From positions 1 through 64,000 of the IMG/VR virus record IMGVR_UViG_3300035698_022190: 64,000 nt of DNA; one strand, 5' to 3'. This document shows positions 3,439 to 17,851 of this stretch, one piece after another. Under the pieces are notes generated by a model, which did not search any database, was not told where the DNA came from, and saw nothing but the letters and a program-made list of their open reading frames with translations. Source of the stretch: a virus. The position numbers and the translations under genes were made by a program. The first letter of the stretch is position 1; each line of letters starts with the position of its first letter.

Positions 3439-3615
3439 ATGAGAATAGTACGGGATCCTTTTGTTGATTTCCCCAGTACGACATTGAATAAAATAAGAGA
3501 AGAAGTAAAAATGCTTGCAGAGCGTTTTTTACGACAAAATGGCCTACCTACATTAGGCATTAATGTTACAGAAAATCTGCAGGATTTTTTATTTCCACGG
3601 GTAAATATTAGATAA
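3439..3615 (+). CDS. Small hypothetical protein (58 aa)
   Basis: A short frame starting MRIVRDPFVDFPS, immediately downstream of a strong promoter and ending at TAA 3613-3615, which overlaps the ATG of the next gene (TAATG). No recognised domain. The middle, KIREEVKMLAERFL, is likely helical. No Trp codons, so it gives no information on the code. Its placement before the neck/tail genes suggests a small virion or assembly protein, but the function is unknown. Confidence 0.6.
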   Translation: MRIVRDPFVDFPSTTLNKIREEVKMLAERFLRQNGLPTLGINVTENLQDFLFPRVNIR

Positions 3616-4478
3616 TGGCTACCACAGGAAATATAAGTTTAGATATAAAATATATCTTCATTAGTTTTGCACAACAATTATTTGCTACACATGGACTGTA
3701 TACATGAAATACAAACCCCATTGAAACAAAGATAATAATTGCTGATAAAAATGCTGTTGATTTAGGTATAGTAGCTAAACGACCTTCAATTATTTTATCT
3801 CGTGGCGGCTTTTCGTTTATGAAATTAGCGATCAACCAACGAGCACCATCCAAAGATTTCGTTCATTTGGACGGAACACAAAATTTAGTAGGACCTTTAG
3901 GATCTGCAGATGCTTCAAAAAACGCTGTTTTTATGGACCAAATACAAGGTTCAGCAACATTTAATGTTTTATCAAAGCAGGGTATACAAGCAGAAACTAT
4001 TGCTAACGAGCTATACATGGCCTTAGTCGGATATAAAGAAGATATAAGGGCTAAGGGTATGGAAATTAAAAATATCTCATTTGGCGAAGAATCCATGCTT
4101 AAACATACTTCAGAAATTGAAGTATCGGCTATAGCCATCGGAGTTCAATTTACTAAAACAGTAAAAGTAGCTCGCGGTGAAAAACAAAATAATTGTTTAG
4201 TTTATCAAGATGGTACGGAAGTTAAAGAAGGTATACATTTTAGAGTGGCAACGGCAGGCACACAAATTGTTTTTGAAGATGCCCCTGCAACGGGAACAGC
4301 TTTAACATTAACATATGTACATGCCATAACATTAGCAACTCATACATCAGTAACTTTAATAGGTACTGTTGACGGATCAAACAAAACTTTTACAGTCCCG
4401 GAAAGTGGAGTAATTTATGGTTATTATACATTATTAGATTCCGTAGACATAACTATTAATGATGCAACTTATGATTAA
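3615..4478 (+). CDS. Putative neck/tail-completion structural protein, UGA-recoded
   Basis: A 287-residue protein from the ATG at 3615 to TAA 4476-4478, with one in-frame TGA (in LYTWNTNP, codon 3708) read as Trp. A standard-code start at 3819 would lose 68 N-terminal residues. The central part (QGSATFNVLSKQGIQAETIA, ANELYMALVGYKEDIR) has the look of a head-tail joining or tail-terminator protein. It lies two genes upstream of the sheath, the usual place for such proteins. The C-terminal third is beta-rich (TVDGSNKTFTVPESG). Assignment rests on gene order and general character, not on a firm family match. Confidence 0.5.
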
Positions 4479-5463
4479 ACTTTCAACATATCAAATTGAC
4501 GAAGCCCTGCTTCAAGGTTTTATTGAAGAAATGAATGATATGGAAAAAACTGCTGGACCATCAAGTTTCGCTGCAAAAACACTTTATAAACTACTTGGCA
4601 AAGCTCGCTTAGGCTTACGTAGGGCGGGACGGGGCGGAAAAGCTATGGACGTAATGTTTAGACGCGGACGTGCAGGGTATAAAGCAGGCGGAGGACGAAG
4701 TATGCTAGGGGAAATGGGCAAGTTTAAAAACCCACTTTATTATGCTGGAAGCAAAGAAATACCTAAACATCATGAATTATTAAGACAACGTTATGAAGGT
4801 TTAGGTGCAATGTTTAAATCAATGCCACAAGGCGCAGTTAGAAGTCTTGGAACAACTTCTCAAAAACTTTTTGATTTAACTAAAGGCATGTCAGGTAAAG
4901 GTGGAATTTTTAAAAACACTGGAAGATTTATTAAAAATATGCCAGGTGTAATGGCCAAAGATGTAGGTGCAAATTTTAGATATAAAGAGCTTCTAGGTGT
5001 TTCAGATAAAATAAAATCTGGCAGAATTTTTATGAAAAAAGATGGTATTATTTTAGATGCAAAAAAAGCTTTAAAAATTTATACAAAAAACCCAGATAAA
5101 GCGGTTACTAGTTTACATTTAAGACCAGCATGGAGAAAGAAAGGGGGAACAGCCTTTTCTAGACCATTAAAGGGTAATACAGGAATAGGAGCAGCTGTTA
5201 GAAAGCGTACACAAACAGGTGTAGCAATGGCAGCTTTCTCAGGTCCTGGAATGGCTGCGACCACTTACTTAGGCAGTAAAACTAAAGAAGATGGTACCCA
5301 AAATAGCCAGCTAAAAAGAATTGGAATGTCCGCAGGTGAGTTAGCCTTGTGGGGTGTAAATCCCGCCATAGGAACTGCAGCCATGATTGGACACGGTGCT
5401 CTCAATTTATTGAAAAAACCGAAAAAGCCAAAACAACCAGAAACAATACAACAATTACTTTAA
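4471..5463 (+). CDS. Basic, glycine-rich hypothetical virion protein
   Basis: About 330 residues. I prefer the ATG at 4471, which overlaps the previous stop by eight bases (ATGATTAA), over the upstream ATG at 4459. The N-terminus (LSTYQIDEALLQGFIEEM) is acidic and helical. The rest is very rich in Lys, Arg and Gly (LRRAGRGGKA, MFRRGRAGYKAGGG), with a late hydrophobic segment around AAFSGPGMAATTYLG. The end is KKPKKPKQPETIQQLL. High basicity suggests DNA or capsid-interior association, but no family is recognised. It lies directly upstream of the sheath gene. Confidence 0.5.
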   Translation: MIKLSTYQIDEALLQGFIEEMNDMEKTAGPSSFAAKTLYKLLGKARLGLRRAGRGGKAMDVMFRRGRAGYKAGGGRSMLGEMGKFKNPLYYAGSKEIPKHHELLRQRYEGLGAMFKSMPQGAVRSLGTTSQKLFDLTKGMSGKGGIFKNTGRFIKNMPGVMAKDVGANFRYKELLGVSDKIKSGRIFMKKDGIILDAKKALKIYTKNPDKAVTSLHLRPAWRKKGGTAFSRPLKGNTGIGAAVRKRTQTGVAMAAFSGPGMAATTYLGSKTKEDGTQNSQLKRIGMSAGELALWGVNPAIGTAAMIGHGALNLLKKPKKPKQPETIQQLL

Positions 5464-5510
5464 TAAGTAATTAATAATTAATAAATGCAATATTATTGGA
5501 GGAGTCATTA

Positions 5511-7118
5511 ATGGCGTACACCAAACCGGGAATTGAAGTTTCACAGATACAGGAAAGCACAACGCCGACCCTTATCACGCCCGATTTAGAGGCTGTCGTA
5601 GTTGGAGAATCTAACTACTGGCAACCAATGACAGAAGCAACAGGTACGTACTTAACAGCGGCTCAGACTGAAATTGCTGTAAGTGGTATTAATTCTTCAT
5701 TCCCAGATGTTACTGGACACAATGCCTTAGTGCTTGTTGACCTATTAACAGCAACGGGCGTAAGAAAACCACTCGTAAAAGATACAGATTTTACTATTTC
5801 GACAGTTGAGGGCTATTCTACTATCACTCTTGTTAGTGGTATACAGGTAGCGAGCGCTGATGTTACAACAGCAGCTGCTGTTTATGTAGGATATCGCGCA
5901 GATAATATAACTGGCCGTGGTTTTAAAACTCTTGAATCTTTAACTGATGTTCAGAATTTATATGGAACTATTAATTCGTGGAATCCATTAGCTTATGGCT
6001 CTGCCTTAGCTTTGGATAACGCAGGTTCTTCTATAAATGCTTATGGAATAAGTGGTATAACCTCGTCAGCAAGTATCTCAGCAGCGTTAAGTGACCTAGA
6101 AGCTCGCGAAGTGTATTCAATGTCTTTGTTAGATCAAAAGTATCTTTCAAGTACAGCGACTACATTAAGCACTCACGTTACAACTCAATCTTCAGCAATC
6201 AACAAGAAAGAACGTATTGCGTTTGTATGTAAAGCAACCGAGTTCACCGGTACAGCCTACTATGAGAGTAGTTCTGATAAAGCAACCACGGCAGCCGCCG
6301 TGCAATTAGCTAATATTGCCCATGGCAATAAGCGCTTTTTCAGTGTATTCCCAGATGTAGCCTTTATCGAAGAATCTCGCCACATTTCAACAATAGATCC
6401 AACCTGGATCACTGCAAGTTTTGCAAACACTTCAAGTGTAGGTTTTGGCACTGGAGATCTTGTTTGTATGTTTAGAAACAACACTACCATTAACGGTATT
6501 GCTTATCTAAAAGGACAAAAGATCACCAGCACTGTTTATACCGCCATCAAAGATTACATTTTAAGTGAAGACTTGACATTGTTAGTATGGGCGCCAGTTC
6601 CTGGCTTCTATCTAACTTCAGCGATTGCAGGTCAAGTTGCGGGCAAAGACCCACAACAACCTTTAACCAACGTACCTATCGGCGGTTTTGCCAAAACAAA
6701 AGGATCCAATGACTATTTCTCAGAAGCCAACCTAAACACAATGGCTGAAGGTGGAACTTATATTGTTAATGAACTTACTACAAACTCACTAATATGTAGA
6801 CATCAGGTTGCAACAGATATGTCGAGTATTGCTAAACGTGAATTAAGTGTAACAAATGCACTCGATTATTCTGCAAAGTTTATTCGAACTGCTTTCTCGC
6901 CTTATATAGGGCGATACACAATCAGTCCTTCGTTTATTAAATTAGCTAACACCATTTTAGTTGGTATTGGCATGTATTTAAAACGCGAAAGGAAGATTAA
7001 TGATTTACAGGTATTATCGATAACACAGGACCCAATAAATCCTGACACGTTACTCGTAGAAGTAAATATTCTGGTGAAATATCCAGTTAATTACATAAAA
7101 CTAAAATTATTATTTTAG
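5511..7118 (+). CDS. Tail sheath protein
   Basis: 535 residues. The start is ATG 5511, with GGAGGAG seven bases upstream; an upstream TTG in frame is not needed. The N-terminus AYTKPGIEVSQIQ is typical of contractile sheath proteins, and the C-terminal domain (LTNVPIGGF, then RRT-like handshake sequence ending VEVNILVKYPVNYIKLKLLF) matches the conserved sheath core. It forms the contractile outer cylinder of the tail and is followed, as usual, by the tube gene. All Trp codons are TGG, unlike the neighbouring fibre genes; this is notable for such an abundant late protein. Confidence 0.9.
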   Translation: MAYTKPGIEVSQIQESTTPTLITPDLEAVVVGESNYWQPMTEATGTYLTAAQTEIAVSGINSSFPDVTGHNALVLVDLLTATGVRKPLVKDTDFTISTVEGYSTITLVSGIQVASADVTTAAAVYVGYRADNITGRGFKTLESLTDVQNLYGTINSWNPLAYGSALALDNAGSSINAYGISGITSSASISAALSDLEAREVYSMSLLDQKYLSSTATTLSTHVTTQSSAINKKERIAFVCKATEFTGTAYYESSSDKATTAAAVQLANIAHGNKRFFSVFPDVAFIEESRHISTIDPTWITASFANTSSVGFGTGDLVCMFRNNTTINGIAYLKGQKITSTVYTAIKDYILSEDLTLLVWAPVPGFYLTSAIAGQVAGKDPQQPLTNVPIGGFAKTKGSNDYFSEANLNTMAEGGTYIVNELTTNSLICRHQVATDMSSIAKRELSVTNALDYSAKFIRTAFSPYIGRYTISPSFIKLANTILVGIGMYLKRERKINDLQVLSITQDPINPDTLLVEVNILVKYPVNYIKLKLLF

Positions 7119-8571: not shown

Positions 8572-10598
8572 TTAGTGAACCCATTCTCTAGCAATTGCTG
8601 GGTCTACTTCCATAGGTACAGAAGGGGCATAGTGATTGAAAGCACCAACCATGGCGGTCTTTACATGCTCTGCAACTTCTTCAGCTTCATCTTTATGTAC
8701 TTCCACTAGTATTTCATCATGAATCGCATTAATGATTTTAGCATCATATTTTTCTTTATCAAAAAGTCTTTTTAATCGACACATAGCTAATTTAGTAGTA
8801 CTAGCACCACATCCTTGGAAAGGAAGGTTCTTCGCAATATTAAATGCGTGTGCAACCTGTCTGGAGTCATCCCAATCAAAAGTTGTTAAGTCCCGACGAC
8901 GACCATCTAATGGTGATAAAGCATATTTATTTCTAGCAGCATCTGTTGTTAGCCCGTCTAAAGTCTTTTTAATATAAGTAAATGTTGCGAAATATTTATT
9001 CATTAAATTACGTGCTTCCTTTATTTCAATACCTAAATTTAAAGATAATTTCATAGGACCAATACCATATATTAATCCAAAGGTTAGAGACTTGGCGGGT
9101 GTTCTATACTTCTTTTTCATATCATCTTTTAATTTTCCTTTATCATCAAAAAATGTGTCATAAGGAATATTATAAATTAAGCTAGCTGAATAGCTATGGA
9201 GATCCATATTGTTTTGTAGAGCATATAAAAACTTAGGCTCTTGTGTTAAATGTGCTAATAATCTTAGTTCTTGCAGTTAATTCTCAGTTTTCACTGAGGA
9301 CTGGACTCTCTCTTCACCCAATAGGGTGCGCCGTATATAGTCTCTACACTTGCCCGGAAAAATACTTTCCTGCTAGCTCGGGATTGCCATATCAAGTGAC
9401 TTAGGTTTCCCCGAATTAGCGGCGTTTTCACTTATAAATTTCTTTATAAGGGAGCCTTGCAAAAATCTTTCATGCTTTCTTTCAAGAAAGTCAAGAAAAA
9501 TCTTTTATGTTGACCCGAAAAGTCTGCTGAGATTATTCTGTAATTTGGATCTTGTGCAATAAATGCTGCACGATATTCTGCTGCTGCGGGAATGTTTGTC
9601 ATATTAGGATTTCGGGAAGCATATCTTCCTGAGTCTGCTCCAAGCTGTACAAAGTTGGAGTGAACGCGTCCATCAATAGTTGAAACATTTTGCTCTAAAA
9701 ACTCTTTTCCATACGTAGTAATTTTCTTTTGTTGGCCTCTGTACTCAAGCAAAGCTTCCACTGCTGGATGTTTTACTTTTTTTAAAGCAGCTTCACTGGT
9801 CGATGTTAAACGCGTACGGGTTAAATCATTTAAAATTGGCAACAATTGTTTAGGTGAGTTATAGTTTATATCTAAATTACCAAACAAATCTTTTTGACAA
9901 AATTTTTCAAAGAATTTGTCCAACTTAGTTTTTGCTATATCTGCCTGTTTAACAGCAATATCTTTTAAAGCAAGCCAGCTGTCCCTATCTAAAAATATAC
10001 CATTTATTTCCATATCAGCCGTTACCTTAGTAGTTTCATATTCTAAAGTAGACAGTTCTTTCATTCCTCGTGCATTTAAAAGTTTTTGGATTTTTTTATA
10101 AATTGGTATTAAATATTGAACATCGTCTCCGGCATATTCTAGCTGGCGTTCAGTAAATTCTTGGCCCCACTTCATTCCAACAAAAGTGGTTTGTTGTGTT
10201 TTATCTAAAGCGTGTCCTAAATACTTTAAAGCAACAGAGTTAAAACTAGCACTTTGTTTTTTACCTTGATTTAGTAACTGCTCTCCAATCATAGTGCACT
10301 TTACTGATGGTAAATCATACCCAAAATTTGTTTTTATCATTCCATAATCAAATTTTGCATTGTGTATTACACAAGTGACATCTTTGTCAACAATCCAATC
10401 TAGCACTTTATAGATATGAGTACCTAGCCTATAAACATCAAAAACAAACTGTTCTTTTTCATCTCCTATTTGCAATAATAAAACTTTTGCTTCTAGGGGA
10501 TCAAGACCCGTTGTTTCCGTATCTAAAGCGACCATAGGCTGTCGACGCAAATAAGTTAAGGCTGCATCTAAGTCACTTTCTGATTTTATATATAACAT
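8572..10598 (-). CDS. polA: Family A DNA polymerase, interrupted by a group I intron
   Basis: Two exons: 10598-9513 (362 codons) and 9273-8572 (233 codons plus stop), joined across a 239-base intron to give about 595 residues. The 3'-5' exonuclease motifs are D26/E28 (ALDTETTGL), N80/D84 and Y155/D159. Polymerase motif A is SADFSG joined to QELRLLAHLT, with the catalytic Asp about residue 359. Motif B is RTPAKSLTFGLIYG and motif C is IHDEILVEV. There is no 5'-nuclease domain, as is usual in phage. Read without splicing, the frame ends shortly inside the intron. Two separate open frames would wrongly suggest a split or broken gene. Confidence 0.9.
9274..9512 (-). ncRNA. ORF-less group I self-splicing intron in polA
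   Basis: The 5' exon ends in U (TCGGGT) and the intron ends in G (TTAACTG) before CAAGAACTA, satisfying the group I rule, and joining restores polymerase motif A. On the minus strand the core elements are visible: a P-like segment (TTCGGGGAAACCTAAG), a Q-like segment (GGCAATCCCGAGC), an R-like segment (GTAGAGACTATATACGG) and a 3' segment (GAGAGTCCAGTCCTC). At 239 nt it is minimal and carries no endonuclease gene. Exact ends could move by a few bases because CAA flanks both junctions. Confidence 0.85.
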
Positions 10599-10610: not shown

Positions 10611-11423
10611 TTATTTATTATCACCCATAAAGTATCGTAATTGATCAGATCTCTTTCTATTTTTCAGCTTATCAATAACTTTTTCTTTAATTTGTCTTAC
10701 GCGTTCTCGTGTAAGCCCTATATCTATACCTATTTCTTTTAATGTATATGGTCTAACCTCATTAATTCCAAAATACATATAGATAATATCCCGCTCTCGT
10801 GGCGTAAATTCTTCTAAAACCAATTCCAATTCGTTTTTGAAAAGCTCTATATTACGCTCAATTTCTTCTGAAGACAATTCTGCAGGTATAACTGTTGTTA
10901 AATCTTGCTCATCATCGGTATGTGGCTCGTCCAAAGCAATAACTGTATAATTAAAAATAGCATCTTTAAGAGCTATACCTTCTTCTAAATAATCTTCTAA
11001 TTCCCAATCTGTTGGTTCTCGCTCTAACTCCTGCAATAAAAATTCGCGTGCTTTCGAAATTTTAGTCACATTAGTAATTTTATTTAAGGGCAAACGTATA
11101 AGTTTTGAATTTTCATGGATGGCATTTATAATACTCTGACGAATCCACCAAACTCCATAAGTAATGAATTTGACATTTTTTGCTACGTCAAATTTATGAT
11201 AAGCTTTTACTAATCCATAATTTCCTTCACATATTAATTCTTCTAGAGTAAGCCCTTGATTTTGATATTTTTTTGCTACAGATACAACAAATCTTAGATT
11301 AGCATTCATTAATTGTTCATATGCTAACGTATCCCCAGCTTGTGCCTCAGCAAACAGCTTGTGTTCCTTTTCTTTTGCAAAAGGTTCGTACTGTTTTATA
11401 CTATTTAAATATAATGTTAGCAT
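10611..11423 (-). CDS. RNA polymerase sigma factor, RpoD-like (early block)
   Basis: 270 residues. Region 2 is plain: ANLRFVVSVAKKYQNQGLTL, then EGNYGLVKAYHKFD and FITYGVWWIRQSI (about residues 42-100). Region 3 begins with LIRLPLNKITNV, and region 4 ends with the helix-turn-helix TLKEIGIDIGLTRERVRQIK (about 225-250). Region 1.1 is absent. The RLPLNK stretch resembles Bacteroidota primary sigma factors more than Firmicutes or Proteobacteria. It would redirect host RNA polymerase to phage promoters. An AGGAA site precedes the ATG. Confidence 0.9.
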   Translation of the reverse strand: MLTLYLNSIKQYEPFAKEKEHKLFAEAQAGDTLAYEQLMNANLRFVVSVAKKYQNQGLTLEELICEGNYGLVKAYHKFDVAKNVKFITYGVWWIRQSIINAIHENSKLIRLPLNKITNVTKISKAREFLLQELEREPTDWELEDYLEEGIALKDAIFNYTVIALDEPHTDDEQDLTTVIPAELSSEEIERNIELFKNELELVLEEFTPRERDIIYMYFGINEVRPYTLKEIGIDIGLTRERVRQIKEKVIDKLKNRKRSDQLRYFMGDNK

Positions 11424-12229: not shown

Positions 12230-12466
12230 CTATCGGTTTTCGTAATAGCGTGTTACACCATCAACAATTCCTTGCCCGCCTATATAAGCGACGCCAATAG
12301 CTACTAATCCGGTCACAACAATATCTAGTTTGTCGGCAGGCATTTTAGAAAATCCAATTGATGTTATAACTGCAATTTCAAGTAGAACAGTTCAAAACTT
12401 GGTTCTAAGTAGCTTGCTCTTCAGTACTTCCTTGACTGTGTCCGGGGTCTTTGATTTTTCTGCCAT
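12230..12466 (-). CDS. Holin-like small membrane protein with in-frame UGA (Trp)
   Basis: 78 residues starting MAEKSKTPDTVKEV and ending RYYENR before TAG. TGA in FWTVLLEIAV is read as Trp; in the standard code only a 37-residue fragment from an internal ATG remains. There is a charged N-terminus, then two hydrophobic segments (about residues 24-40 and 49-68, DIVVTGLVAIGVAYIGG). It overlaps the upstream 107-residue gene by 62 bases in another frame and is followed by a terminator. Size and topology fit a class II holin or other small phage membrane protein. It is the only minus-strand gene in which I found TGA used as sense. Confidence 0.6.
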
Positions 12467-12728
12467 CTTTATTTGTATATACTTTTTCACCTTTCGGCCC
12501 AAGTACATATCCTGGGTAATTATCTTTTTTTAATTGATCACACACAAAACATGTTTTATAAACCCTGTTTTGACTACACTTTTCTGGGTTATGCCAATTA
12601 TGAAAAGTCCAATCAAACTCATCGTCCGAAACATCCATATCTGATTGTGTGCTCCAAATTTCATTAAAGTCCACACTCTGTGCTTTAGGTTTTGTGTCGT
12701 GAATACCTAATTTATCTTTTATATCCAT
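12405..12728 (-). CDS. Hypothetical protein with Cys cluster (107 aa)
   Basis: No family is recognised. The N-terminus is acidic with three Trp (all TGG; EIW, FDW, HNW), followed by a CSQ...TCFVCDQ cluster that could bind a metal. A Gly/Lys-rich tail includes YVLGPKGEKVYTNKDGRK and ends STEEQAT. It sits between two small membrane-protein genes in a unit bounded by a promoter (12943-12971) and a terminator (12178-12205). It shares 62 bases with the downstream gene in a different frame. Confidence 0.6.
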   Translation of the reverse strand: MDIKDKLGIHDTKPKAQSVDFNEIWSTQSDMDVSDDEFDWTFHNWHNPEKCSQNRVYKTCFVCDQLKKDNYPGYVLGPKGEKVYTNKDGRKIKDPGHSQGSTEEQAT

Positions 12729-12971: not shown

Positions 12972-13559
12972 TTAAAATTTATGTATAAATGTTGGCGGAT
13001 TCACCTCCCCACGGAGCCAGTTTAATATATATTGAGAACCAATACAGCCAATAATTTTATTACCGTTCTGTACTATACCAGCTTGCTTTTCATATTCGAG
13101 CTGACAACTACCGTCTTTTACATCTTTAGGTATTGTCAACATCATAGCTTCGAGAGTATTATTTTTATTTTTAGTAAAGGCTGCAATAGCGCGCCCCTCA
13201 GAACGAAGGTCTATCCAATAAAAATCGTTTTTTTCTGCGGTTTCAAATAATAATTTTCTAAACTTTGTATTATCTACCGCACATACAACACAGTCATATC
13301 CATCTAATTCTTTTGCTTTTGTAACGCGTTCTGTTTTTCCTGTAAAACCATACCTAGCTGAAATCGATTCAGCTTTTTCATCAGTGACATCTTCCATACC
13401 AAAATTTTGATATGAGAGGTTATCCATGTCCACAGTGTCATCATCTACAAAAGTAATAAAAGCGTCGTTTAATTGGCTATGTTCATTTAAATCATATAAA
13501 TGAAATGCTAACCATGAGCCAATTCCGCCTGCCCCAACAACTAAAATATTCTTAGTCAT
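12972..13559 (-). CDS. E1-like (ThiF family) ubiquitin-activating-type enzyme
   Basis: 195 residues. It has a Rossmann nucleotide-binding motif, VVGAGGIGSW (residues 7-16), the adenylation segment FVDDDTVDMDNLSYQNFG (37-54), and CAVDNTKFR (93-101), followed by WIDLRSEGR. Cys152 (DGSCQ) and Cys172 are candidate catalytic thiols; no CxxC zinc pairs are seen. ThiF/E1 proteins adenylate the C-terminal glycine of a ubiquitin-like protein. The start follows the JAB stop directly, with AGGAG inside the end of the JAB gene, so the two are translationally coupled. It is the last gene of the Ubl cassette. Confidence 0.85.
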   Translation of the reverse strand: MTKNILVVGAGGIGSWLAFHLYDLNEHSQLNDAFITFVDDDTVDMDNLSYQNFGMEDVTDEKAESISARYGFTGKTERVTKAKELDGYDCVVCAVDNTKFRKLLFETAEKNDFYWIDLRSEGRAIAAFTKNKNNTLEAMMLTIPKDVKDGSCQLEYEKQAGIVQNGNKIIGCIGSQYILNWLRGEVNPPTFIHKF

Positions 13560-14030
13560 CTAATCTCCTATTAAATTTATTTGTGAAGGTTCAAAACTTC
13601 TATTTATTCCATCATAAAAAAAAACGTTTGTTTTCTTTTCTAGTAATGAAAAGATGGGATAAAATCCAGCGTATCCCGCGCCGTATATATCTGTTACAGA
13701 AGGTTGCGCAATATGGTTTGGATGTGTATGAAAGATGCCAATAAAATCTTTTTTTGCACCTTTATTCATTAATGTAGTCTGTTTTAATACTTGAAAAAAC
13801 TCGTTTGGATCTGGCACATAGTGAACTTCTGTTTTTAAATTTTGTGTTCCTATAAGCTTTTTCTCAAAGTTTTGTCCTGCTACATTTGTCATACTAATAA
13901 ACTCATTACATTCAGAGTTTTTATCATCTGTTTTTAAACCGAGCAAAGCCCCAACCACTTCATGACCAGGACTTGTTTCGCCATATTTATGCATCTCTGT
14001 CCATACAGATTTCTGCATATTTAAAATCAT
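13560..14030 (-). CDS. JAB/MPN-domain (JAMM) metallopeptidase
   Basis: 156 residues with a complete JAMM signature: Glu24 (HEVVGALLG), then His101-x-His103-x7-Ser111-x2-Asp114 (HTHPNHIAQPSVTD). These ligate the catalytic zinc in deubiquitinase-type peptidases. In bacterial and phage Ubl operons such enzymes cleave or mature the Ubl. Neighbours are an E1-like gene (0-base gap downstream), and one base separates it from the upstream 268-residue gene. Some phage JAB proteins act in tail assembly, but this one lies in the early block with Ubl and E1 genes, which favours a Ubl role. Confidence 0.85.
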   Translation of the reverse strand: MILNMQKSVWTEMHKYGETSPGHEVVGALLGLKTDDKNSECNEFISMTNVAGQNFEKKLIGTQNLKTEVHYVPDPNEFFQVLKQTTLMNKGAKKDFIGIFHTHPNHIAQPSVTDIYGAGYAGFYPIFSLLEKKTNVFFYDGINRSFEPSQINLIGD

Positions 14031-14031
14031 T

Positions 14032-14838
14032 TTATGCTTGTGCCGTTGAGCCTGGTGTAAATGTAAATCTACACAGCGGGTTTAAACCTAATTCTTTACA
14101 AATTGCATTTTCTGATTTTCTACCGAAACGCATTTTAAAATTGTTTACAACCCAAGCTCTACTTGCATTTACAAGGCGATTGGCACCTAAAACATCTTTT
14201 GAGTTTGGTCCATATATTGCGTATATTAAGCCATTAGATACCCATAAGTCACGCGCAGCATTATCCATAGTTTTATGGCTAGCCTGCTCCATTAAAATAC
14301 CAGGAGTATTTTGCCGCATTGGCCAGAGTTCACCCAATACGGGCAATGCTATGTGCACTAAGTGTGTCTCATTAGTACCAGTTGGGTGATCATTATCTAC
14401 ACGCCCATAAATACCTTTGTGTCTTTTATAATAATTATGTATTTGTACGTTAGTTTTAGAAATACCTAACGTAGCCAAGTGCGCAGAAATATTAACCCAA
14501 CTTAATCCTTTATTTTCAACTAAATCGCATATGTATTCAAAAGGCGTTGTGGGAAGAACCGTAGCGCCCCAGCCTAAATTATGCCAGGTGACTTTTTCTT
14601 CTTTTAATCGTTTACCTAATTTGTGAACAGTAATCCCTAATTTTTCTGCCAATTCTTTTTGCGTTATTTTATTTCCAACGGTGCCTGCAGTAAAAGTAGC
14701 AGTTTGTTTTTTACCAAAAATAACTGTTGCATCTTTTGTCATATGACCCTTTCTTAAAACTTCGCCCAGAACTCTGGAAAATTTTGGTATGCGGGGCAAT
14801 TTCGCGGTTGTCATGTTTGCTTTTGTCTCTTTCTTCAC
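14032..14838 (-). CDS. Helix-turn-helix hypothetical protein in the Ubl cassette
   Basis: 268 residues. The start is the GTG at 14838, with AGGAAA upstream (alternative ATG at 14814). An N-terminal helix-turn-helix is suggested by ITQKELAEKLGITVHKLGKR, and a second helical repeat by WVNISAHLATLGISKTNVQI. The remainder (HIALPVLGELWP, then a basic SRAWVVNNFKMRFGRK) is not recognised. I see no clear E2-type catalytic Cys site. It could regulate the cassette or act as target or adaptor; this is open. The JAB gene follows after one base, but a terminator separates it from the upstream Ubl gene. Confidence 0.6.
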   Translation of the reverse strand: MKKETKANMTTAKLPRIPKFSRVLGEVLRKGHMTKDATVIFGKKQTATFTAGTVGNKITQKELAEKLGITVHKLGKRLKEEKVTWHNLGWGATVLPTTPFEYICDLVENKGLSWVNISAHLATLGISKTNVQIHNYYKRHKGIYGRVDNDHPTGTNETHLVHIALPVLGELWPMRQNTPGILMEQASHKTMDNAARDLWVSNGLIYAIYGPNSKDVLGANRLVNASRAWVVNNFKMRFGRKSENAICKELGLNPLCRFTFTPGSTAQA

Positions 14839-14866
14839 TTAATTGTTTCCTGTTTAAAATTAAAAT

Positions 14867-14888
14867 GGGGGCAAGTTACCCTGCCCCC
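14867..14888 (-). terminator. Intrinsic terminator between Ubl and downstream cassette genes
   Basis: A perfect 7-bp stem, GGGGGCA with TGCCCCC, and an eight-base loop, followed on the minus strand by ATTTTAATTTT. It would limit read-through from the Ubl gene into the HTH, JAB and E1 genes. Confidence 0.75.
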
Positions 14889-14897
14889 TATAATATC

Positions 14898-15149
14898 TTA
14901 ACCGCCTACTAGGGCGTTTGTTAACGTAATGTCTGCTGCGTTGATAAGAATATCAACTGTTAGCTGTACGGGATTCATTTGAATTCCGTCAATATAACAC
15001 CATTTGCTATGATTATTACATTGGTCTAAGACGCGCTCTAAAGCTGCATTTGGGTATTCTTCATACTCATCATGACCACGGCTACTTACTACTTTGATCA
15101 TAATACGTGCTTTTAGTTCTTCCGTTACGTTTACGGGTTTTTGTTTCAT
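14898..15149 (-). CDS. Ubiquitin-like (beta-grasp) protein with C-terminal GG
   Basis: 83 residues ending ALVGG immediately before the stop, the exposed di-glycine needed for E1 activation, with no tail to remove. The order KARIMIKVVSSRG (strands 1-2), PNAALERVLDQCNN (helix), KWCYIDGIQM (strands 3-4) and a final ITLTNALVGG fits a beta-grasp ubiquitin fold of normal size. Evidence is fold pattern, length, GG terminus and the neighbouring E1 and JAB genes; no direct sequence identity to eukaryotic ubiquitin is claimed. A terminator follows, and a 735-residue gene lies 22 bases upstream. Confidence 0.75.
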   Translation of the reverse strand: MKQKPVNVTEELKARIMIKVVSSRGHDEYEEYPNAALERVLDQCNNHSKWCYIDGIQMNPVQLTVDILINAADITLTNALVGG

Positions 15150-15171: not shown

Positions 15172-17379
15172 TTATCCCCTATCAAGGGTATATATCTGTG
15201 TTGCTAACATAGAATCATTATGTAATGCAAATATTCTATTTACTAGTTTGTCCATTCCTACCTGCGTATTACTGCTTTTATCTACTATACAAATATATTG
15301 TCCGGTATTATAATCGTGAACTCCGCACGTGCTTCGCTCAATATCACCGCTATTTAATTCAACAAAATATCTGCGTAATTTACCCTCAATTACATATCCA
15401 AATTTAGTTTTACCATTTCCTAATGTAACAGTCTCCTGTTTTATTTTAAATAGCTTTTCTGTTTCTGTTAGTAATTGTTTAGATTTAGTTATAGCATCCA
15501 CATAAGCTGTTTTTGCATCTGCTATTAAATCTTTTATGTCTTCGGGCTGTATCCCTACAACAACTTCTGGATTTAATAAAACAGTAACAGCTCCTAATAG
15601 ATCATTTTGAGCTTCCAATCTGATTAATTTGTGAGTGTTTCTAACTTTATATTCTTTATCACCTAATACTAGATAGTTTAGATTTTTTGTTCTTTCAAGA
15701 GGAAGCTTAGCTTCAATAGAAACGCCCTCAAAAGCATCACGCAATTTTAAATCAATACCATGCTGTAAATAATTATGTAGCTGTAAACTACAGCTACTAA
15801 CTGATTTTACAAAGAAATTAAAATCTTCTTGTTTTTCGTAACATAAAGCACGTCGTAAACAATCTTCTAATTCAGCTGCATTAATTCGGCAATCATTTAA
15901 ATACGTAAGGGTACTATCTACGCCAAGGCTATTAGTATTTGTGCGCTTTTCAGCTACAAAGGTTACATCACCAATAGTGCCACTATCTTGATATTGGGCT
16001 TTATTTAAGAAAGCATCAAATGCCATTTCAAAGTTAATATCATCAAGGCGCCAACTATAATTTAAAGATCTAACAATATCATAAACCCAATCTGAGGTGC
16101 TTTCAAATGTTAATCGCTGCCCTTCATATTCAATACTACGAGGTTTAAATACAACATTATTTATCTTTAGCTCTGCTTTAGGGTTCTTTTTTGCGCCAGG
16201 TTTTTGAATTAAAATATCCAATTTTTTCTGAATTTTTTCTTTTAAAACCTTTTTGGCTGCCTGTTCTTTTTCTTCTCGTGAGCGTCTTTGATCGTGTCTT
16301 TTTGTAACTAAGCGTAAACGTTCATTGTTAATTAAAGCAAAATCATTCTCACCTTTTTCAGCTTGAAGGGCATGCGCTGCTTTATTGAGTACGTCATTGT
16401 CTGGCAATATAGGGGGCATATCGCTGAAAATAACTGTTCCCAGCTTATGACCCTCTTCTGCAGTATGAGGATTACTTCTATAAAACATTACATAACGCCC
16501 AATATCTAAATAATTATAGGCAGGAAATTCAGAGTCAATCTGAATTAAGTATAGTTTTGTACTATAATAGCTAAAACAGTTTTCACCTATTACAAGCGCA
16601 ACTCTTTTATTATCGTTTCCTTCCCAAACTTTATAGATACCATAGACATCACTATGTCTATCTACTAAATTGCGCATATTTGCTAGACTATCATACGTCG
16701 TAACAACCTCTGAAGGTAAAAATTTATCAAAAGTTTTTATGGCAGTTTTTAATTCACTAGAGCCCCCAATACTTCGTAGAGGAATAGAATTATTTAGGTT
16801 TAAAAAATATGGAAGAAGAGCGTCAATGTCAACACTCAATTCTTCAGCTGTTGTATAAATTTTACTGTACATCGCCCTAATCCTACGATCTGCATCGGGA
16901 GATATTTCTTCTGGTTTTATATAAGCCAAAATTTGTAATAATTTATTCAAGACTTTAATATTAGCCTGAGAAAGTGTAGTCATACAAAAACTTTTGTTAT
17001 GATTATAGTTTTCTACGGCATAGACAAAGGCGGTCTCATTTTCTTTCAAAGAATCAATGCTTTTTGAAACTTGAGGAGACCACCCGTCTTTAGATGTTTT
17101 TGGTGCTTTATGAATGTTTACCTTATAATTTGAGGTGTCCTCTTGAAAAGGGTTAATTTCAATAAGCATGGTTTTTGTACGTAAAACATATGAAATGCGG
17201 TTACGTATTTTATCATAGTGAGAATCACTATCATGATAATTCTTTATTTTAGACTTTAAAGTGTTAAAAACAGCTTTTGCGGAATCATTTTGAGTCCGCA
17301 TCTCTGCTAATTGTTTATCAGAAATACCTAAGTCATATAAAGAATTTATTGCAGGTAGTAATATAAAGCTCGTTTGCAT
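15172..17379 (-). CDS. Large uncharacterised protein upstream of the Ubl gene (735 aa)
   Basis: No family is recognised. The N-terminal half is mixed helical with several Cys. Residues about 375-415 form a highly charged, probably coiled stretch (RRSREEKEQAAKKVLKEK). A helical middle is followed by a short C-terminal beta-rich module (LRRYFVELNSGD, then TCGVHDYNTGQYICIVD). AGGAAA precedes the ATG. It is 22 bases before the Ubl start, the closest possible partner, so it may be the Ubl target, scaffold or an unrecognised conjugating factor. All Trp codons are TGG. Confidence 0.65.
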   Translation of the reverse strand: MQTSFILLPAINSLYDLGISDKQLAEMRTQNDSAKAVFNTLKSKIKNYHDSDSHYDKIRNRISYVLRTKTMLIEINPFQEDTSNYKVNIHKAPKTSKDGWSPQVSKSIDSLKENETAFVYAVENYNHNKSFCMTTLSQANIKVLNKLLQILAYIKPEEISPDADRRIRAMYSKIYTTAEELSVDIDALLPYFLNLNNSIPLRSIGGSSELKTAIKTFDKFLPSEVVTTYDSLANMRNLVDRHSDVYGIYKVWEGNDNKRVALVIGENCFSYYSTKLYLIQIDSEFPAYNYLDIGRYVMFYRSNPHTAEEGHKLGTVIFSDMPPILPDNDVLNKAAHALQAEKGENDFALINNERLRLVTKRHDQRRSREEKEQAAKKVLKEKIQKKLDILIQKPGAKKNPKAELKINNVVFKPRSIEYEGQRLTFESTSDWVYDIVRSLNYSWRLDDINFEMAFDAFLNKAQYQDSGTIGDVTFVAEKRTNTNSLGVDSTLTYLNDCRINAAELEDCLRRALCYEKQEDFNFFVKSVSSCSLQLHNYLQHGIDLKLRDAFEGVSIEAKLPLERTKNLNYLVLGDKEYKVRNTHKLIRLEAQNDLLGAVTVLLNPEVVVGIQPEDIKDLIADAKTAYVDAITKSKQLLTETEKLFKIKQETVTLGNGKTKFGYVIEGKLRRYFVELNSGDIERSTCGVHDYNTGQYICIVDKSSNTQVGMDKLVNRIFALHNDSMLATQIYTLDRG

Positions 17380-17416: not shown

Positions 17417-17851
17417 CTAGCTTTTAGAGTTGAGGTCAAACAATGTTCCATCTTCTGTTTTTTTAATATCGCATGCAGCAATTACTAAATAGTTAGATGG
17501 GTCTGGATGAACAACTACTTCCTTGTCAATCATTTCTTTAGGTGACTTTGCGTCATAATGTTTTAACAGTTTAGCTACTGCGGATTGCGGTGCTAACTCT
17601 GTTTTTCCGCTTACGCTTTTAGTTGTTGTTAACCAAAGTCCTTGTATTCGTTGTGCTCCTTTGTGGTCTTCAACCCAAGCATCAGAAATGTTAAATTTTC
17701 GATCATTTCCATTTGTCACTATAAATACAAGTTTATCTGAGTATGTTCCTTTTTTGGGAACGTGTACTGTGTCTGTGATTACGTCTACTACTGTCGCTAA
17801 GCGTGTTTCTGATCCAATCACTAAATCTAAGAAATCTTTCGTCTCATTCAT
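17417..17851 (-). CDS. Hypothetical protein, possible OB-fold (144 aa)
   Basis: It begins MNETKDFLDLVIGS. Beta-rich segments (TRLATVVDVITDTVHVP, KLVFIVTNGNDRKFNISDAW, QGLWLTTTKSV) and a C-terminal NYLVIAACDI suggest a small beta-barrel, as in some phage nucleic-acid-binding accessory proteins. The family is not recognised. It is first gene after the strong terminator at 17918-17943, so it probably heads the transcript carrying the 735-residue and Ubl genes. I could not find a convincing promoter in the 66 bases between. Confidence 0.55.
   Translation of the reverse strand: MNETKDFLDLVIGSETRLATVVDVITDTVHVPKKGTYSDKLVFIVTNGNDRKFNISDAWVEDHKGAQRIQGLWLTTTKSVSGKTELAPQSAVAKLLKHYDAKSPKEMIDKEVVVHPDPSNYLVIAACDIKKTEDGTLFDLNSKS

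Follow-up and report, generated by a model that had tools for sequence, protein, structure and literature searches.

A candidate ubiquitin-like conjugation cassette in a phage genome, with relatives in magrovirus-like viruses and Poseidoniales contigs

The cassette and its genomic setting

The window analysed here, a stretch of 64 kb, is part of a virus record of 210,208 bases. Its minus strand carries the cassette together with a neighbouring gene. In the order of transcription, the products are a protein of 144 aa, one of 735 aa, a ubiquitin-like protein (Ubl) of 83 aa ending in ALVGG, an HTH-like protein of 268 aa, a JAB peptidase and an E1 of the ThiF type. The E1, JAB, 268-aa and Ubl genes, with the 735-aa gene upstream, had been named in an earlier note made from the sequence, and all five lie where that note placed them. 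The features are:

17417..17851, minus strand: conserved upstream neighbour, 144 aa (131 aa in the related phage L031)
15172..17379, minus strand: 735-aa cassette protein, E2-candidate family, with a homologue in phage-type and magrovirus-type cassettes; C-terminal domain at about residues 606-735
15289..15291, minus strand: codon of Cys697 of the 735-aa protein, invariant candidate thioester cysteine (coordinates computed from the ORF)
14898..15149, minus strand: Ubl, 83 aa, with a beta-grasp model and Foldseek matches
14901..14906, minus strand: terminal Gly-Gly codons of the Ubl
14867..14888, minus strand: terminator-like hairpin directly 3' of the Ubl gene, GGGGGCAGGGTAACTTGCCCCC then ATTTTAATTT (z -4.2)
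14032..14838, minus strand: 268-aa HTH-like protein between Ubl and JAB, GTG start, optional insert
13560..14030, minus strand: JAB/JAMM peptidase, 156 aa (Prok-JAB, E=3.9e-10), with the HTHPNHIAQPSVTD motif
12972..13559, minus strand: E1-like adenylating enzyme, 195 aa (ThiF, E=4.3e-15), with invariant catalytic residues
13104..13106, minus strand: codon of E1 Cys152 (GSCQ), invariant candidate E1 cysteine (coordinates computed from the ORF)
12405..12728, minus strand: conserved downstream neighbour, 107 aa (97 aa in L031)
10611..11423, minus strand: sigma70-family factor, with a homologue 3' of the cassette in almost every phage-type locus

The resemblance and position of the two outer neighbours, like the assignment of the sigma70-family factor, were read from the sequence. 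The presence of this factor near the cassette marks the host as bacterial. Since sigma70, polA, RNR and dUTPase genes share the gene block of the cassette, the block is regarded as one of replication and transcription. A group I intron (Rfam RF00028, E 9e-18) at window positions 9282-9474 on the minus strand splits polA into parts of 384 and 211 aa; in L031 polA is unsplit and encodes 585 aa. The phage encodes more than 20 tRNAs (L006-L007), and a phage tmRNA with an unusual predicted tag ending in FAYAG is located at L006 13539-13943 (Rfam RF00023, E 6e-43).

The hairpin that follows the Ubl stop codon is GC-rich and leads into a T-rich stretch, and may set the level of the Ubl above that of JAB and E1. 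The HTH assignment of the 268-aa protein, also part of the earlier description, agrees with weak matches to HTH_26 (E=0.0057, below cut-off) and phrog_4583 (2.6e-4). A homologue at the equivalent place was found only in L209-L211, and the gene was rejected as an essential part of the cassette because most phage cassettes do without it.

The Ubl, E1 and JAB proteins

On its own, the 83-aa Ubl gave no credible match in searches of Pfam, NCBIfam, PHROGs and phage records, and viral scans for single proteins by exact peptide patterns recovered no relatives. These were recovered by alignment-based scans with E1, Ubl and 735-aa alignments, which yielded a set of 74 distinct Ubl proteins from viral and genome loci, that of the window included. 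The GG is kept in 74/74 of them; 16 end there, 55 have one to four residues more and three are fused to a further domain. Such variable tails after an invariant GG would be expected from maturation by the JAB. At L053 5593-6324 and L246 6753-7460 the Ubl-GG continues into C-terminal extensions some 150 residues long, much as in eukaryotic ubiquitin fusion genes.

An AlphaFold2 model of the Ubl, made from 35 sequences (pLDDT 83), predicts a beta-grasp fold of the order b-b-a-b-b-h-b. A Foldseek search of this model against the PDB returned NEDD8 first (E 9e-4, prob 1.00) and Caldiarchaeum ubiquitin second, and the list consists of ubiquitin-like domains (ubiquitin, NEDD8, SUMO, ISG15) or SUMO-tag fusions, with modest TM scores of 0.37-0.53, about 0.45-0.5 for the top matches. 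The predicted fold and the conserved C-terminal GG are those of a ubiquitin-like modifier. These two features, the fold and the retention of GG in homologues, had been named beforehand as the points on which the idea of a ubiquitin-like protein would stand or fall; the model predicts the fold, and the homologues retain the GG.

In 15 aligned E1 sequences the GxGGIG motif, D39, D41, K62, D96-N97, R101 and C152 are invariant. The nucleotide motif, reported as intact in the earlier note, and the catalytic Asp, Lys and Arg place the enzyme in the ThiF/MoeB/UBA superfamily. Searches of NCBIfam likewise showed a resemblance to ThiF/MoeB, the best match being PRTRC_ThiF (E=1.3e-12), at 47.5 of 144.75 bits and hence below cut-off. 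In a FastTree phylogeny of 62 sequences and 178 columns, the E1 of the window falls into one clade (support 0.99) with those of phages L031 and L033, the Methanoperedens-type loci L113 and L120, Poseidoniales MAG loci and magrovirus-type viruses. This clade stands apart from ThiF/MoeB, from crAss-like phages and from the group of Salmonella phage Arash.

The metal residues H101, H103, S111 and D114 of the JAB are all in place, in agreement with its description as a JAMM peptidase, and E24 is the candidate glutamate as judged by inspection of the sequence. The strict HxH..S..D pattern is present in 90 of 94 distinct JABs; among the other four, two have HNH but otherwise keep the pattern, one contains an X and one is cut off. 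The protein resembles desampylase (NF041370, E=3.5e-10), below the cut-off of that model.

A Ubl with such partners could also be a sulfur carrier of the ThiS/MoaD/CysO type, the JAB releasing the product, for example in tRNA thiolation or cysteine synthesis. Five Ubl relatives do match ThiS in Pfam (best E=0.0018), and the likeness of the E1 to ThiF/MoeB and the many tRNAs of the phage would fit such a role. However, no rhodanese, PALP (cysteine synthase) or ATP_bind_3 (TtuA-type) protein was found in the 210-kb record by searches that were positive in 13-14 of 14 control genomes, although part of the genome may be missing from the record, and such proteins could come from the host. Furthermore, the fold matches of the Ubl are to protein-conjugating Ubls, the E1 clade is separate from ThiF/MoeB, and a sulfur carrier leaves no obvious role for the 735-aa partner with its invariant cysteine. 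We therefore consider sulfur transfer improbable.

Gene linkage and the 735-aa protein

Two main arrangements of the cassette were recognised in viruses. The phage type, represented by about 20 distinct sigma70-encoding contigs after duplicates were merged by hand, has the order 735-Ubl-JAB-E1, followed by sigma70 in nearly every locus. The magrovirus type, defined by a TFB gene on contigs of up to about 100 kb, occurs in dozens of archaeal viruses that resemble magroviruses, with the order Ubl-(RNR)-430aa-TFB-E1-JAB where the region is complete; features of the magrovirus family used for comparison were taken from PMC10768690. The RNR gene at L033 2689-5670 has grown to 993 aa, probably via an intein.

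In contigs of Poseidoniales MAGs the E1 gene adjoins that of the JAB, and just upstream L128, L130, L132 and L133 have a Ubl gene and one related to that of the 735/430-aa protein. Judged from the sequence, neighbouring genes in these contigs look chromosomal, for example one for a radical SAM protein of the wyosine type (L125) and one for a long RNR (L132). In L126 the Ubl-GG is fused in frame to the invariant-Cys domain of the 735 family. Three paralogues of this domain (ICI), at 2-775, 3579-4661 and 5149-5844, surround the Ubl, E1 and JAB genes of L128. In L113 and L120 a 735-like gene adjoins the E1 gene, and the two are followed by a gene for a 166-aa protein ending in KGKGG which, judged from its sequence, may be a Ubl. 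With the genes together in dozens of viral contigs, chance falls far short of explaining their association. Computation shows the four genes to be linked in phages, in viruses of archaea and in contigs of archaeal MAGs, and it likewise shows the predicted Ubl fold, the conserved GG, the intact E1 and JAB motifs and the invariant cysteines.

The 735-aa protein by itself has no credible match in Pfam, NCBIfam or PHROGs. Its C-terminal half is homologous to a protein of about 430 aa from archaeal viruses, the HMM of the 430-aa family picking out the 735-aa protein of the window with E=2.9e-4 among 8,525 ORFs. A Foldseek search with the 735-aa model against viral models returned three proteins of 416-452 aa (prob 1.00), likened to the magrovirus protein by their size. 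C697 is invariant in 41 sequences of the family, and C697, D710 and D722 are invariant in 27 divergent members. The predicted C-terminus consists of a helix (612-644), strands up to residue 697 and a further helix (709-720). E2 enzymes show a similar order of helix, strands, cysteine and helix, which the predicted C-terminus of the 735-aa protein resembles.

The absence of a recognisable E2, remarked upon in the earlier note, was confirmed: no E2 family of Pfam matches the 735-aa protein, and searches of the genome with UQ_con and Prok-E2_D gave no match. Neither the Foldseek search of the 735-aa model (pLDDT only 62.6) against the PDB nor the search of its family HMM against the PDB returned an E2, and hhalign of the family with phage E2-D proteins was non-significant, the best alignment pairing both cysteines (P=0.25). 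An identity as an E2 of the UBC fold is thus not supported by family, fold or profile. The invariant cysteine is an E2 trait that the protein does show. The only family lead, a weak one, is DUF7737 (PF24879). A fragment of the 735-aa protein matches it with E=0.0015 and 19.0 bits, short of membership at a gathering cut-off of 27, and hhalign of the C-terminus with three DUF7737 sequences gave a prob of 76%, with the cysteines aligned. The Cys motif of DUF7737, YLCIV..D..L..ND, aligns with the 735-aa C-terminus, but its bacterial proteins, as far as seen, do not share the gene context of the cassette. A link of a DUF4132-type protein to MoxR conflict systems was not found in PMC7159879.

The missing transfer enzyme is, in our view, best sought in the 735-aa protein. 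The earlier suggestion that one of two unknown neighbours acts as E2 is therefore retained for this protein, on account of C697 and the strict linkage, and given up for the 268-aa protein, which is unlikely to be an E2 because it is an optional insert that most relatives lack.

The main rival explanation is that the E1 conjugates the Ubl directly, the 735-aa protein being an adaptor, substrate or effector and no transfer enzyme. Direct conjugation by an E1 has been proposed for archaeal SAMP and for Urm1-like systems. Such a mechanism is consistent with the invariant C152 of the E1 itself, with the desampylase-like JAB (below cut-off), and with a genome in which the UQ_con and Prok-E2_D searches found no E2 and a 735-aa protein matching no E2 by fold or profile. 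Nevertheless, the 735 family has an invariant cysteine and invariant Asp residues and is linked to the cassette as tightly as the E1, and in L126 its cysteine domain is joined to a Ubl-GG. Direct transfer from the E1 is accordingly thought unlikely, if less so than a sulfur carrier.

Comparison with known systems and proposed role

Operons of Ubl, E1, JAB and E2 genes in prokaryotes, PRTRC-type sets included, have been described by Iyer et al. 2006 (PMC1779556). The cassette is like them in clustering a Ubl with a C-terminal GG, a short ThiF-type E1, a JAB and a protein with a conserved cysteine, but differs in that its cysteine partner is from another family and that it is virus-borne. It was not assigned to PRTRC, given the low score of PRTRC_ThiF and the absence of Prok_Ub (PF14454) and Prok-E2_D (PF14460) from the genome. 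The same study (Iyer et al. 2006; PMC1779556) described a Ubl (TAPI) with a JAB (TAPK) in tail assembly of phages lambda and T1. These are likewise a phage-encoded Ubl-like domain and a JAB, but they serve tail assembly and have no E1, whereas the cassette consists of separate genes, including an E1, in a replication block. The archaeal SAMP system (UbaA, desampylase) shares an E1-like enzyme, a desampylase-like JAB and the lack of a classical E2; in contrast, the matches of the cassette to it are sub-threshold only, and the cassette is a dedicated cluster with a cysteine-bearing fourth protein, in viruses.

Neighbouring E1 and JAB genes are also present in crAss001 (gp76, gp77) and Salmonella phage Arash (gp246, gp247), but their E1s belong to other clades and their partners differ. 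In crAss001 (L002 2247-7469) the pair is annotated as 'thiamine biosynthesis protein' (gp76) and 'metalloprotease' (gp77); the N-terminus of gp79 appears Ubl-like by eye, with gp78 as a further partner. In Arash (L003 1519-4539) gp246 is an E1 (ThiF 8e-15), gp247 a JAB (1.4e-7) and gp248 a weak match to Prok-E2_D (0.024). These three, annotated as structural or hypothetical, form another phage Ubl-type set. Such annotations show that E1-JAB genes have been overlooked. Phages L090, L092, L093, L094 and L097 have a JAB, an E1 and a protein with an E2-like HPx..C motif, and L090, L092 and L093 also encode a small protein that is Ubl-like and has a GG close to the C-terminus.

Bacteria employ Ubl operons against phages, and the cassette could be a captured operon of this kind (CBASS-II, Bil or Bub-like) that serves as a decoy or excludes superinfecting phages. 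PADLOC E1-E2 models do match the nucleotide-binding half of the E1, and JAB models match the JAB. However, the E1 is a stand-alone protein of 195 aa, without a Cap2-like E1-E2 fusion, and membership in CBASS type II was rejected; a separate E2 of the Bil type was not found in the UQ_con search of the genome. PADLOC matches neither the Ubl nor the 735-aa protein, and several virus lineages have conserved the set in their replication block and not in an accessory island. We hold this explanation to be very improbable, and nothing found supports the role in conjugation or anti-phage defence to which the earlier note had pointed, nor the early expression implied by its placing of the cassette in an early block.

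The reading we favour, and consider fairly probable, is that of a phage-encoded ubiquitin-like conjugation system. The E1 would adenylate the C-terminal glycine of the Ubl and then hold the Ubl as a thioester on C152, from where it would be handed to C697 of the 735-aa protein. Acting as transfer enzyme, the latter would attach the Ubl to an amine of a target protein, and the JAB would cleave it off again. The JAB would also mature the Ubl in relatives with residues beyond GG; the Ubl of the window already ends in GG. The most likely targets would be phage or host proteins of transcription and replication, because the cassette sits in that gene block. More tentatively, the 735/430-aa family may represent a new class of enzyme for Ubl transfer that has no kinship with E2, or a remote one at most. 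With the Ubl, the E1 and the JAB it would make up a conjugation system common to bacteriophages, magroviruses and Poseidoniales chromosomes, by which the viruses would modify proteins during infection; we see this wider proposal as possible, short of probable.

A Ubl with a JAB was already known from phage tails, as were Ubl/E1/E2/JAB operons from bacteria. A virus-borne set with a fourth family of the 735 type was not found in the literature searched, where a prior mention in the 2017 magrovirus paper is possible; the magrovirus literature examined does not mention ubiquitin, ThiF or JAB. If the proposed mechanism is true, phages with a sigma70 gene and viruses that infect marine archaea share a complete set for activation, candidate transfer and removal, and viruses would run their own ubiquitin-like signalling. 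Through the linkage to clusters of archaeal hosts, two ideas become directly testable: that viruses and archaea exchange such systems, and that there may be a new class of transfer enzyme. Cassette-bearing viruses may thus label proteins in a manner much like that of ubiquitin in eukaryotes.
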